Source: Candidatus Omnitrophota bacterium (lineage in GTDB: Bacteria > Omnitrophota > Gorgyraeia > Gygaellales > Profunditerraquicolaceae). Taken from it: 33,172 bases of DNA. The translations under genes and the position numbers were made by a program. The stretch lies in NCBI GenBank assembly GCA_028712255.1, contig JAQTQJ010000005.1:84950-118121 (forward strand), read 5' to 3'. Positions 12,298-33,172 of the stretch are shown piece by piece; the first letter of the stretch is position 1; each line of letters begins with the position of its first letter. Below the pieces are notes generated by a model, which saw only the letters and a program-made list of their open reading frames with translations, made no database searches and was not told the DNA's origin.

Positions 12298-13369
12298 GAG
12301 GACAATTATACCTTTTGGACCGCAGCATCCGGTGTTGCCTGAGCCTATTCATTTGGATCTAGTAGTTGAGGATGAAAAGGTAATTGAGGCAATTCCTTCG
12401 TTAGGTTTTATTCACCGCGGCCTTGAGAGATTAGTTGAGAAAAGGGATTTTATTGATTTTGTTTATGTTGCTGAAAGGATTTGTGGTATCTGTAGTTTTA
12501 TCCACGGCTTGACATATTGCATCGCTATTGAAGAACTTATGCAGGTAGAGGTTCCTAAGAGGGCAAATTACTTGCGCTTAATCTGGTCGGAGCTCTCGCG
12601 AATTCACAGCCATCTTTTGTGGCTAGGATTAATGGCTGATGGTTTTGGTTTTGAAGCGCTCTTTATGCACACCTGGAGATTAAGAGAGAAAATCCTGGAT
12701 ATTATCGAAGAGACTACAGGCGGCAGGGTAATCTTTGGGTCGGCTAAAATCGGCGGAGTAAGAAAAGATATTTCTCCTGAGAAACTGGTAGAAATTGTCC
12801 TAAAACTAGAAAATTACGCCAAAGAAATCAGGGAGATTACAGATGTTTTTATAAACGACAGTTCCGTTAAGCATCGTTTAGTGGGGGTGGGGATATTAAG
12901 CAAGGAAGACGCTTATCTTTTAGGGGCGGTCGGCCCAACCCTCAGGGCTAGCGGAGTAAGTTTAGATACGCGTAAATTAGGTTATGTTGCTTATAAGGAG
13001 ATTAATTTTGAACCGATAACTGAGACAGCCGGCGATAGCTATAGCCGTTGCCTGGTAAGGATAAGGGAAATTTTTCAGTCTATTGATATGATCAAACAGG
13101 CAGCCGGAAAAATTGAGCCGGGGGCTATTGAGGTTAAAGTAACCGGCACGCCAAACGGTGAATTTTTTGCCCGCACTGAGCAGCCGCGGGGGGAGGTCAT
13201 TTATTATGCTAAGGCAGACGGATCGCGGTTCCTCCAGCGCCTGAGAGTGCGCACTCCTACTTTTGCCAATGTGCCTGCGATGGTTAAATTATTACCGGGT
13301 TGCCAGCTGGCGGATGTGCCGATTTTAGTTTTAACCATTGATCCCTGTATAAGCTGTACGGAGCGATAA
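12284..13369 (+). CDS. echE: Ech [NiFe] hydrogenase large (catalytic) subunit
   Basis: Carries the Ni-Fe active site that reduces protons or oxidises H2. Both metal-binding pairs are present: C67 and C70 in RICGICSFIH near the N-terminus, and C355 and C358 in DPCISCTER at the C-terminus. The N-terminal FGPQHPVLPEP and the FIHRGLE segment match the NuoD-like fold of group 4 enzymes, and retention of all four Cys separates it from NuoD of complex I, which has lost them. The protein stops three residues after the last Cys, so there is no C-terminal extension to be cut by a maturation protease, a feature known from some Ech and CooH proteins. It has 361 residues, normal for EchE. Confidence 0.95.
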   Translation: MNSPKRTIIPFGPQHPVLPEPIHLDLVVEDEKVIEAIPSLGFIHRGLERLVEKRDFIDFVYVAERICGICSFIHGLTYCIAIEELMQVEVPKRANYLRLIWSELSRIHSHLLWLGLMADGFGFEALFMHTWRLREKILDIIEETTGGRVIFGSAKIGGVRKDISPEKLVEIVLKLENYAKEIREITDVFINDSSVKHRLVGVGILSKEDAYLLGAVGPTLRASGVSLDTRKLGYVAYKEINFEPITETAGDSYSRCLVRIREIFQSIDMIKQAAGKIEPGAIEVKVTGTPNGEFFARTEQPRGEVIYYAKADGSRFLQRLRVRTPTFANVPAMVKLLPGCQLADVPILVLTIDPCISCTER

Positions 13370-13371
13370 GA

Positions 13372-13710
13372 ATGAAGATATTCGTGATGGCAAAAAAGGT
13401 TTTGAAGAGTTTGTGCACAAGGCCGGTAACTTTCCGCTATCCTTTTGTTCCTAAAACTTATTATAAGTTTACGCGCGGCAGTATTACTATTGATATAAAT
13501 AGGTGTATATATTGCGGTATGTGCCAGAGAAAATGCCCTGCTCAGGCCATCCTGGTAACTAAGGACAACAAAGAATGGAAGATTGACCGGTTACGCTGCG
13601 TTTCCTGCGGCTATTGTGTAGATGTTTGTCCGGTAAAATGCCTGTTTATGGAAAACACTTATTCTGCTTCTACTCAAACCAGGACAGAGGAGGTTTTTAG
13701 GCGTGCATGA
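13372..13710 (+). CDS. echF: Ech hydrogenase ferredoxin-like subunit (NuoI-like)
   Basis: A 112-residue protein with two [4Fe-4S] motifs: C45, C48, C51, C55 (CIYCGMCQRKCP) and C76, C79, C82, C86 (CVSCGYCVDVCP). It should carry electrons between external ferredoxin and the cluster of EchC. The N-terminal RYPFVPKTYYKFTRGSI resembles the membrane-facing stretch of NuoI/EchF. The ATG at 13372 follows echE by two bases; a second in-frame ATG at 13387 is possible, and neither has a strong ribosome binding site. Its end overlaps hypA by eight bases. Confidence 0.92.
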   Translation: MKIFVMAKKVLKSLCTRPVTFRYPFVPKTYYKFTRGSITIDINRCIYCGMCQRKCPAQAILVTKDNKEWKIDRLRCVSCGYCVDVCPVKCLFMENTYSASTQTRTEEVFRRA

Positions 13711-14041
13711 GTATCATCTTATTGAGGAGGTTATTAAGGGCGTCTTAGCCGCAAGCAAAGAAAAAGAAATTGTTGAGATTATTTTGTCTGTTAGCGATTC
13801 AAGCGGTCTGGATCCGGGTTCAATTGAACTTTATTTTGAGGAAGTCAGGGAGAAGAATAGCCGGTTAAAAGGAGCCAAATTGTCTGTACGGCTGGTTAAA
13901 ACAAAATTATATTGCCCCAAATGTAATTTAGATTTTGAATGGATAAATAAGAATTTTTCCTGCCCGAAATGCTCTGAGGTGGCTTTGCGTTCTGCAGTAA
14001 ACCAACAGATACATATCGAAAAAGTGGTATTTAAATCTTAG
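13703..14041 (+). CDS. hypA: Hydrogenase nickel chaperone HypA
   Basis: Delivers nickel to the [NiFe] hydrogenase precursor, normally with HypB. The GTG start gives the family N-terminus M-H-E, where His2 is the nickel ligand, and it is preceded by AGGAGG at 13688-13693. The zinc site is complete: C71 and C74 (CPKCNLDF), C87 and C90 (CPKCSE). The 112-residue length is normal. Position directly after echF indicates dedication to this enzyme. No hypB-F genes lie in the window. A second, zinc-less HypA relative occurs at 32311. Confidence 0.93.
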   Translation: MHEYHLIEEVIKGVLAASKEKEIVEIILSVSDSSGLDPGSIELYFEEVREKNSRLKGAKLSVRLVKTKLYCPKCNLDFEWINKNFSCPKCSEVALRSAVNQQIHIEKVVFKS

Positions 14042-31977: not shown

Positions 31978-32229
31978 ATGCTTAAAGCTTTTCAGGTCGG
32001 TATTTATTCCAGTGATAAGATAATATATGAAGGAGAAGCAGTTTCTCTGGTTGCTCCTTCTGAATCGGGTTATCTTGGTATCCTGGCATCTCATGCCCCG
32101 CTGGTTGCTAAGCTTAAGTGCGGCGTAATTACTTTCAAAGATAATGCAGGCCTAGCCAGGTCGATAGAAACAAAGCAAGCCGGGTATCTTGAAGTTTTAC
32201 GTAACAATATTACCATTCTGCTTAAATAA
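31978..32229 (+). CDS. atpC: ATP synthase F1 subunit epsilon, short form
   Basis: 83 residues, against about 130-140 in most bacteria. The N-terminal beta-sandwich is complete (FQVGIYSSDKIIYEGEAVSL, GYLGILASHAPLVAKLKCGV, KQAGYLEVLRNNITILL), but the C-terminal two-helix domain, which inhibits ATP hydrolysis in other species, is absent. Similarly short forms are known in some anaerobic and green sulfur bacteria, so this is probably natural rather than a broken gene. It closes the operon. Confidence 0.92.
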   Translation: MLKAFQVGIYSSDKIIYEGEAVSLVAPSESGYLGILASHAPLVAKLKCGVITFKDNAGLARSIETKQAGYLEVLRNNITILLK

Positions 32230-32255: not shown

Positions 32256-32311
32256 CTTGTTTTATCCAGTTTTTTTGTTATACTTAAATAAATCCATACT
32301 TGTTTTATCCA
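32256..32311 (+). repeat. Pair of 13-base direct repeats flanking a promoter
   Basis: CTTGTTTTATCCA occurs exactly at 32256-32268 and 32299-32311, 43 bases apart, about four turns of B-form DNA. The first copy contains the -35-like TTGTTT, and the second ends on the A of the start codon at 32311. This could be a site for a regulator that binds two faces of the promoter; the binding protein is unknown. Confidence 0.5.
32257..32284 (+). promoter_or_regulatory. Candidate promoter of the second hydrogenase operon
   Basis: TTGTTT (32257-32262) and TATACT (32279-32284) are 16 bases apart, in the gap after atpC. Predicted start is near 32291, leaving a leader of about 20 bases with no visible ribosome binding site before the ATG at 32311. 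Confidence 0.5.
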
Positions 32312-32577
32312 TGCACGATACCTATCTTCTAAAAAATATCCTGAAGTATCTCCAGGAACAGGAGGATCAAGCTTCCCGTAAACTCAGGAAGGTGCGCCTT
32401 TCTATTTCCGAATTCGGGAGCCTGAATAAAGAGCATTTTCTCCAACATTATCAACAAGCAGTTTTGGGTACAAGGTTTGAGGGCCTGGAGGTTGCCGTCG
32501 ATACAATATCTTTTGGGCCGGAACTGGAAATTACCGGATTAGAGTTTGCAGGAGAAACGGAGGCTATAGAAAAGTGA
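32311..32577 (+). CDS. HypA-like protein without the zinc-binding domain
   Basis: An 88-residue protein that begins M-H-D, retaining His2 as in HypA, and shows the HypA N-terminal nickel-binding fold: ILKYLQEQEDQASRKLRKVR, LSISEFGSLNKEHFLQHY, GTRFEGLEVAVDTI and ELEITGLEF. It has no cysteine at all, so the two CxxC zinc pairs of full HypA are missing. It stands first in an operon with a soluble hydrogenase beta-subunit gene (overlap four bases), suggesting nickel delivery or an accessory role for that enzyme. It is unlike the full-length HypA at 13703. The assignment rests on pattern recognition of the N-terminus and context. Translation start is ATG; no Shine-Dalgarno sequence is visible. Confidence 0.65.
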   Translation: MHDTYLLKNILKYLQEQEDQASRKLRKVRLSISEFGSLNKEHFLQHYQQAVLGTRFEGLEVAVDTISFGPELEITGLEFAGETEAIEK

Positions 32578-33172
32578 AATACGCAAGCTTAAAAAAAATA
32601 AACCTAAATAATTGGTTAGAGCACTTAAAGGGCAAGGCCAAGCTTTATGCCCCGCGTAAAAAGGAGAACCTTTTTGTTTTCCGGCCGGTAAAAGATGCCC
32701 AGGATGTCTGCCTTGAGTATATACCTACTATCCTACCGCCTAAGAAATATTATTTTCCGCAGAAAGAAAAATTATTTAAATTCAGCGTCCAACCGTTTAA
32801 AACCTCTAAGGCAATTGATAAATTCGAGGATTTCATTCTTTTCGGGGTGCATACTTGCGATATCGCCGGTATTCAATGCATGGATGTGGTTTTTAGAGAT
32901 GCCCCGGAGGATCCCAATTATCTTAACCGCAAAGACAGGATGTCGATTATCGGCATAGAATGTTTGAAATACTGCGATAAATACGCAAACTGTACTTCTA
33001 TGGGTAACCATGTCCCTCGCGGGGGGTATGACCTGATGCTGGTGGATTTGGGCGAAAAATTTATCATTCATATTAATTCTGAAAAAGGCGAGAAATTGGT
33101 TAGCGGGTTGGATTATATCAAAGAGGCGACGGCAGCCGATATGGAACTGCTTGAACGCGCCAGAGATGCCAA
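32574..33172 (+). CDS. Soluble [NiFe] hydrogenase / sulfhydrogenase beta subunit, 3'-truncated by window edge
   Basis: Begins at GTG 32574, overlapping the upstream stop by four bases and preceded by CGGAGG (32558-32563). The frame is open to the window end, giving 199 codons. The segments FEDFILFGVHTCDIAGIQCM, PNYLNRKDRMSIIGIEC and a Cys-rich YCDKYANCTSMGN match the N-terminal part of the beta subunits (HydB/HyhB type) of group 3b hydrogenases, which carry [4Fe-4S] clusters and pass electrons between the flavin and hydrogenase subunits. The ferredoxin-like C-terminal region expected next is outside the window. Related proteins also act in sulfite or sulfur reduction, so the hydrogenase assignment is family-level. 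Confidence 0.75.
   Translation, partial: MKYASLKKINLNNWLEHLKGKAKLYAPRKKENLFVFRPVKDAQDVCLEYIPTILPPKKYYFPQKEKLFKFSVQPFKTSKAIDKFEDFILFGVHTCDIAGIQCMDVVFRDAPEDPNYLNRKDRMSIIGIECLKYCDKYANCTSMGNHVPRGGYDLMLVDLGEKFIIHINSEKGEKLVSGLDYIKEATAADMELLERARDA

Follow-up and report, generated by a model that had tools for sequence, protein, structure and literature searches.

HypA has been solved on a hydrogenase large subunit in the HyhL–HypA complex (5yxy). The zinc site of HypA tunes its nickel affinity (PMC5557546), and the tight nickel site of known systems is formed by HypA bound to HypB (PMC12134894). In Escherichia coli, Cys2 of HypC holds the iron unit and is required for binding to the apo large subunit, while His51 of HypC may coordinate iron jointly with Cys41 of HypD; HydG and HydE are not named in the text of the same source (PMC12134894). 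According to PMC9431212, HydG produces an Fe(CO)2CN synthon, and a form with the motif CX5CX19C is reported there for a Clostridium HydG.

The window analysed in this study is a stretch of 33,172 nucleotides from a Candidatus Omnitrophota genome (G000; contig 5, G000:C5:84950–118121), the final base of which is the end of that contig. Close to this end lies a gene for an 88-aa protein, here called mini-HypA, which would represent a domain-minimal HypA, that is, the N-terminal Met-His-Asp/Glu nickel domain without the zinc hairpin. Taken alone, mini-HypA is of moderate interest; its main value lies in the cassette that begins with it, as this suggests a hybrid maturation route for [NiFe]-hydrogenases. 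We consider it likely that mini-HypA delivers nickel inside this hybrid cassette, in which HydG and a HypC–HydE fusion protein take over the part of HypD, HypF and, presumably, HypE. A HypC–HydE fusion, a HydG serving a [NiFe]-hydrogenase and a zinc-less HypA were not found among the titles and abstract openings listed for the open-licence literature, and the words 'HydG' and 'maturation' are absent from the main text of two Omnitrophota papers (PMC10066038, PMC8542988).

The mini-HypA gene and the group 3b operon

The mini-HypA gene occupies positions 32311–32577 of the forward strand, its ORF starting at the ATG at 32311, and the encoded protein begins with MHD, keeps His2 and has no cysteine. 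PF01155 (HypA) matched it over positions 1–67 of 112 at E 1.3e-5, the score of 25.7 bits being just under the cut-off of 28.9, and TIGR00100 gave E 0.012 with 15.7 bits against a cut-off of 88.1; the zinc-less HypA of another genome (G063) reached 54.7 bits against PF01155. The predicted structure of mini-HypA, built on an alignment of three rows (window, L028 and L029 only), had a mean pLDDT of 83 and the order helix-strand-helix-strand-strand. The original prediction, made from the window alone, had called the protein HypA-like, and its fold agreed: a structural aligner superimposed the model on seven solved HypA entries with Z 10.2–11.8 over 80–85 residues. The aligned range of these seven chains ran from residue 1–3 to residue 117–139, spanning the hairpin that is absent from the model. 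An eighth solved entry, 3a44, aligned over 67 residues with Z 8.1; the top non-HypA match reached Z 6.5. With Foldseek, the best 14 matches were HypA without exception; when the solved chains were searched by sequence instead, the 88-aa protein matched no HypA.

When 35 zinc-less sequences (77–113 aa) were aligned with full HypAs, they covered the nickel domain, skipped the CxxC...CxxC hairpin and retained the last beta-strand. From this alignment across the hairpin to the final strand, the zinc domain appears to have been neatly excised in mini-HypA, which does not look like a truncated protein. Met1-His2 was present in all 35 sequences, the window protein having been predicted to keep His2, and CxxC was found in none of them, indicating the absence of the two-pair zinc site, although 18 of the 35 carry one or two cysteines. 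The dN/dS ratio was 0.04–0.16 in the eight closest pairs among those listed, indicating purifying selection, and the reading of mini-HypA as a pseudogene or fragment was rejected on this basis. Near the gene, an Rfam scan gave no match, and promoter and terminator scans gave about as many matches as in shuffled sequences.

The GTG start of the next gene, at 32574, sits four bases inside the mini-HypA gene. This gene (32574–33172, forward strand) is cut by the contig end; its 199 aa are the N-terminal part of a beta subunit of the group 3b hydrogenase/sulfhydrogenase type (ShyB/HydB), with a match to NF040829 at E 8.5e-40 that stays under the cut-off, so the predicted neighbourhood of a cysteine-free HypA-like protein and a soluble-hydrogenase beta subunit was confirmed. 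Upstream by 81 bases, an 83-aa ORF (31978–32229, forward strand), which we take to be atpC, closes an ATP-synthase-type gene cluster; this neighbour cluster (c13) also precedes mini-HypA in L028, L032, L034 and L035. The window holds, as was likewise predicted, a full-length HypA of 112 aa from a GTG start with two CxxC pairs (13703–14041, forward strand; PF01155, E 2.6e-16). It adjoins a membrane [NiFe]-hydrogenase, the large-subunit match of which lies at 12416–12622 on the forward strand in a 368-aa frame (PF00374 positions 1–69, E 6.0e-14; G000:C5:97365–97571). A third HypA of G000, on contig 20 (L005:8815–9171), is also full with two CxxC pairs; its neighbours, identified by eye, are two ATPases with ferredoxin-like inserts and radical-SAM-like, metallo-beta-lactamase-like and thioredoxin-like proteins.

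Contig 21 of G000 opens inside the C-terminus of ShyB and continues with the gamma, delta and alpha subunits, a protease and the HypC–HydE fusion. Because L028, L029, L031 and L032 show the same order unbroken, we infer that the mini-HypA operon of contig 5 continues on contig 21, and synteny would thus supply the genes past 33172, for which the original prediction had asked. Beyond HypC–HydE lie a regulator, a kinase-like protein, two subunits, an [FeFe]-hydrogenase of group A6, HydG (G000:C21:13033; 501 bits, cut-off 312), an unfused HydE, HydF and two further genes; we take the regulator to be Rex-like, the kinase histidine-kinase-like, the two subunits Hnd-type and the last two genes Nfn/Sud-type. 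The beta, gamma, delta and alpha subunits each have the NF040828–NF040836 sulfhydrogenase models among their best matches, all below the equivalog cut-offs. The group 3b large subunit carries RICGIC and DPCISC (the L1/L2 cysteines, four active-site Cys; L050) and ends in a short C-terminal tail. In G015, the large subunit and its own maturation protease form a single open frame of 610 aa (L031:4194–6026), where the protease is expected to cut near the junction of the two parts.

Recurrence of zinc-less HypA in Omnitrophota

The sample comprised 97 Omnitrophota genomes (the bacterium's own, and those of its genus, family, order and class), 27 of them of one genus. The 88-aa protein matched 22 at E ≤ 1e-3, and 20 genomes, G000 included, carry mini-HypA at E ≤ 1.3e-18; this spread, together with the dN/dS values, shows that the gene is not a chance ORF. 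Among the 22, the match in G085 is a full HypA; that in G087, though weak, belongs to a gene immediately ahead of ShyB. A wider HypA profile revealed further zinc-less forms in the same 97 genomes. A scan of a genome collection with the 88-aa protein gave two loci, and both named relatives are genome bins assigned to Candidatus Omnitrophota.

Hydrogenase subunit or protease genes adjoin 33 of the 35 zinc-less HypAs, so no consistent association with non-nickel enzymes emerged. The expected link to group 3b genes was borne out by 22 loci at which the zinc-less gene lies directly before ShyB; at seven it lies between a hydrogenase protease and the HypC–HydE gene, and at four after a hydrogenase protease, the next gene in one of these (G063) being a triple HypC–HydE–HydG fusion. 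The remaining copies have no hydrogenase gene in view: that of G059 (L062:3404–8300) lies between NikR and a CbiM/CbiQ transporter (nickel/cobalt uptake), and that of G094 near CutA1. The suggestion that mini-HypA is a nickel accessory for the group 3b enzyme is thus well supported. Its description as a specialised addition for a second enzyme holds in part, as a zinc-less HypA is the sole PF01155 match (at 1e-3) in 17 genomes that are at least 90% complete (G005, G006, G009, G011, G013, G014, G015, G016, G018, G028, G039, G049, G055, G062, G063, G087 and G094).

The idea that the zinc-less forms could be a distinct family was not supported. The tree comprised 34 zinc-less sequences (L028 left out) together with 15 full HypAs; it rests on short sequences of about 80 residues and is weak. 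It needed five changes of state, at least two of them forced by well-supported branches. This argues against a single monophyletic family, and zinc-less HypA is probably a recurrent form of HypA.

None of the 97 genomes gave a HypB (TIGR00073) match over the cut-off, not even where HypD and HypF are present, and nickel insertion in the entire class may proceed without classical HypB. Because HypB is missing where HypD is present too, its absence explains little; its loss as the cause of the loss of zinc was rejected, since full HypAs coexist with zinc-less ones in this sample. Given this absence, we suggest only that a HypA without the hairpin may operate at ambient nickel.

An alternative role, which we regard as unlikely, is that of a chaperone that holds the apo large subunit open, the delivery of nickel having been lost and the metal entering without a carrier. 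The missing hairpin is the part that tunes affinity (PMC5557546), and the position of Glu3 is occupied by Asp in the genus of the window and by Asn in G075, both of which would fit such a role. Against it stand the invariant Met1-His2 of all 35 sequences and the copy within the NikR/CbiM/CbiQ cluster.

HypC–HydE, HydG and the classical Hyp proteins

The HypC part of the G000 fusion matched PF01455 over residues 1–64 (E 3.4e-15, over the cut-off; TIGR00074, 44.2 bits versus 48), and its HydE part matched TIGR03956 over residues 96–410 (E 2.1e-71), the 241 bits being just below the cut-off of 254.6. Two other fusions, both of the linker-less form, exceeded this cut-off with 267–268 bits; in this second form, HypC is joined to HydE in all 11 genomes read. 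The whole radical-SAM domain of the fusion HydE aligned with solved HydE (E 6e-67), and every fusion examined for CX3CX2C has this motif (31 of 31 and 4 of 4). A branch of 100/100 split the HydE domains of the fusions from five unfused canonical HydEs, in a tree that carries a long-branch warning for G053 and in which the HydE of G061, cut at a contig edge and labelled 'unfused', falls among the fusions. A profile was used to select 36 fusions, from all fusion genomes but one (35 genomes) and from L029. In every one of them, the HypC domain begins with Met-Cys and carries Gln at the position of the conserved His, whereas the His is kept in all three free HypCs from HypD-bearing genomes; the G005 fusion looks alike, its HypC part being cut off at the contig end. 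The structure predicted for the fusion from a two-row alignment had a pLDDT of 42 and was set aside. HydE-like genes turned up in 13 plasmid records, but no match extended over 80% of the fusion.

Of 30 HydG-type frames from the fetched loci, some of them from [FeFe] genomes, 27 carry CX3CX2C and CX2CX22C, and three have the CX5CX19C variant; dN/dS for HydG was 0.09–0.14 in five pairs. The variant motif marks the C-terminus of a second HydG paralogue (L089, G000:C17:23852–25264; L094, G030:C8), and hydrogenase references gave no match beside the G000 copy. The triple fusion of G063 (L061:7651–10398) unites HypC, HydE and HydG in a single protein of 915 aa immediately after a protease and mini-HypA; by eye, the operon that it ends resembles a group-4/Mrp-type hydrogenase operon. 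In G000, the genes are ordered HypC–HydE, [FeFe] genes, HydG, HydE, HydF and Nfn, while L031, L080 and L081, from relatives without [FeFe]-hydrogenase, show the [NiFe] operon, HypC–HydE, HydG and Nfn, with the [FeFe], HydE and HydF genes absent. HydG is thus retained in genomes with no [FeFe] match. In G014, which has no [FeFe]-hydrogenase match, an 85-aa remnant like the HydF C-terminus lies between HydG and an Nfn-type gene (L033:13903–14160).

Eight markers were tabulated over the 97 genomes. A [NiFe]-hydrogenase was counted for PF00374 at E 4.6e-9 or better, which dropped G001 (3.2e-8); eight weaker matches fall in genomes counted anyway. HypF was counted from 188 bits upwards, dropping G050 (110 bits, with stops), pieces of 40–43 bits in G000, G003, G056, G073 and G081, and a second one in G064. 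HypD was counted for any match at 1e-10, and HydG and HydF over the cut-off only, leaving out six genomes with only weaker HydG matches. A fusion was counted for a whole or contig-split match, or where HypC was seen on the fetched locus; a HydE piece without its N-terminus (G056, contig 89) and the contig-edge HydE of G061 were not.

The fusion is present in 36 of the 97 genomes, all of which have a [NiFe] large subunit, and was found in none of the 28 [NiFe] genomes with HypD and in none of the 16 [FeFe]-only genomes (of these, G070 has HypD and HypF, and G079 matched neither HydE nor HydG). In genomes with a [NiFe]-hydrogenase, the fusion and HypD were mutually exclusive (both, fusion only, HypD only, neither: 0/36/28/8; Fisher 8e-13), as were HydG and HypD among [NiFe] genomes without [FeFe]-hydrogenase (0/26/24/5; Fisher 7.8e-11), although these p-values overstate independence because the genomes are related drafts of one class and kinship is ignored. 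A [NiFe]-hydrogenase, HydG and the fusion occur with no HypD, HypF, [FeFe] or HydF match in 24 genomes (G005, G006, G009, G014, G015, G016, G018, G019, G020, G025, G030, G031, G049, G060, G062, G063, G067, G069, G071, G072, G074, G075, G078 and G087); conversely, 22 have a [NiFe]-hydrogenase with HypD and HypF, and HydG, fusion, [FeFe] and HydF are all absent. HypD had no match in the genus of G000 (27 genomes), and HypF gave only N-terminal pieces of 40–41 bits in G000 and G003. In 23 of the 27 HypF-bearing genomes, the profile was matched only from about 366–480 to 740, and the N-terminal part of HypF seems to be missing or encoded apart in those Omnitrophota.

It appears decidedly unlikely that zinc-less HypA is an ordinary paralogue, that HydG and HypC–HydE serve [FeFe]-hydrogenases, and that undetected Hyp proteins mature the [NiFe] enzyme. 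G000 and nine further fusion genomes do possess an [FeFe]-hydrogenase, the group A6 gene of G000 lying 4.7 kb after the fusion gene; however, 26 of the 36 fusion genomes have no PF02906 ([FeFe]) match, and all but one of these 26 (G023) also lack HydF over the cut-off. The fusion is, moreover, absent from the [FeFe]-only genomes, and G000 has a separate unfused HydE beside HydF. As for undetected proteins, HypB was missed even in HypD genomes and some factors are perhaps too divergent for the models, but the 31 HypD matches across the class all have E 4.6e-128 or better, so that a hidden HypD is unlikely.

Some genomes fit neither set. Of the 54 [NiFe] genomes without [FeFe]-hydrogenase and HydF, five lack both HydG and HypD (G050, G059, G061, G076 and G080), and the first four of these have no counted fusion either. 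The assemblies of G050, G061 and G076 are incomplete, fragmented or truncated at contig edges; G080 (about 10 contigs, 96% complete), in which the fusion is present and HydG was not found at 1e-30, is a true exception. G045 has a [NiFe]-hydrogenase and HydG with no HypD, and the fusion was not found; G029 has the fusion and [FeFe]-hydrogenase, with HydG not over the cut-off. G052, G053 and G056 have both hydrogenases, HydG and an unfused HydE, with no HypD and no whole fusion, and G023 has HydE and HydF with no [FeFe] match. HypD occurs without HypF in G042 and G092, and both classical sets occur with both enzyme types in G028, G034, G039 and G085.

A proposed hybrid pathway and its relation to known systems

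We find it fairly probable that these genes constitute a third, hybrid pathway, in which an Fe-CO-CN unit from tyrosine is made by HydG and handed over by HypC–HydE, and nickel is brought by zinc-less HypA, with no classical HypB, HypD or HypF. In such a pathway, HydG, by orthology, would make the Fe-CO-CN synthon, and HypC–HydE would receive, carry and remodel it, its HypC domain standing in for HypCD by docking through Cys2 to the apo large subunit. By analogy with HypA, mini-HypA would most likely bind Ni(II) at its N-terminus and, without a classical HypB partner, pass it to the group 3b large subunit from its own operon while the active site is open, after which the HycI/HyaD-type protease of the operon would close the site. 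Where a genome has both enzyme types, a single HydG would supply the [NiFe] enzyme via HypC–HydE and the [FeFe] enzyme via HydE/HydF. Support for this hybrid route is correlational and comes from drafts of one class; it comprises predicted fold, domain loss, operon structure, co-occurrence, motif retention and selection. Mini-HypA itself also occurs in HypD/HypF genomes (G055 and others) and is therefore not specific to the hybrid route.

The [NiFe] site carries Fe(CN)2CO, and we know of no precedent for a ligand exchange from Fe(CO)2CN to Fe(CN)2CO. Given this mismatch between the HydG product and the site, the hybrid route needs either such an exchange or a site that differs. In G055, which has HypD and HypF and no HydG, the 3b large subunit shares 78–84% identity with its counterparts in the other operons led by mini-HypA and has the same EVPRG, IPTNQN and DPCISC motifs. 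From this likeness, it seems that either route can serve the one enzyme, which favours the usual Fe(CN)2CO site over a new set of ligands. In its boldest form, the hybrid pathway would give the [NiFe] site a different CO:CN set, but a non-canonical Ni-Fe(CO)2(CN) cofactor, though compatible with the two CO per CN of the HydG synthon (PMC9431212) and with genomes that have no HypF for cyanide from carbamoyl phosphate, is very improbable given how alike the sites look in G055 and its counterparts.

The Omnitrophota set seemingly builds a [NiFe]-hydrogenase without HypD and HypF, using an enzyme known for making CO and CN from tyrosine. If this is true, both hydrogenase maturation routes are joined in it, the zinc hairpin of HypA is dispensable, and a small cassette is suggested for [NiFe]-hydrogenase production in new hosts.

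Compared with the HypABCDEF system, neither HypD nor HypF is counted in G000 and its genus. With the HydEFG system of [FeFe]-hydrogenases, the set shares HydG, unaccompanied by [FeFe]-hydrogenase or HydF in the 24 genomes and accompanied by both in G000. Omnitrophota HydG matches known HydG (TIGR03955; 4wcx) over its full length and over the cut-off, keeping the radical-SAM and C-terminal cluster motifs, but differs in its setting: in genomes with no [FeFe] or HydF match, it neighbours [NiFe] operons or forms part of a fusion within them. The fusion shares its radical-SAM domain with HydE (TIGR03956; 7o1o, 5few), from which it differs by the HypC domain in front and the separate tree branch. 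It shares the Met-Cys start with HypC/HupF (PF01455; 2z1c, 3vyr), but its HypC is joined to HydE, has His replaced by Gln, and occurs in genomes with no HypD match. Mini-HypA resembles HypA/HybF (PF01155, TIGR00100; 3a43, 2kdx, 6g81) in the fold of the nickel domain, the Met-His start, the final strand and its place among [NiFe]-hydrogenase genes, but has no zinc hairpin with CxxC pairs and no HypB in its sample of 97 genomes. Finally, the operon has the beta, gamma, delta and alpha subunits and the L1/L2 cysteines in common with the known group 3b [NiFe]-hydrogenase/sulfhydrogenase (NF040828–NF040836), and is set apart from it by subunits that score below the NCBIfam equivalog cut-offs and by the inclusion of mini-HypA and HypC–HydE.
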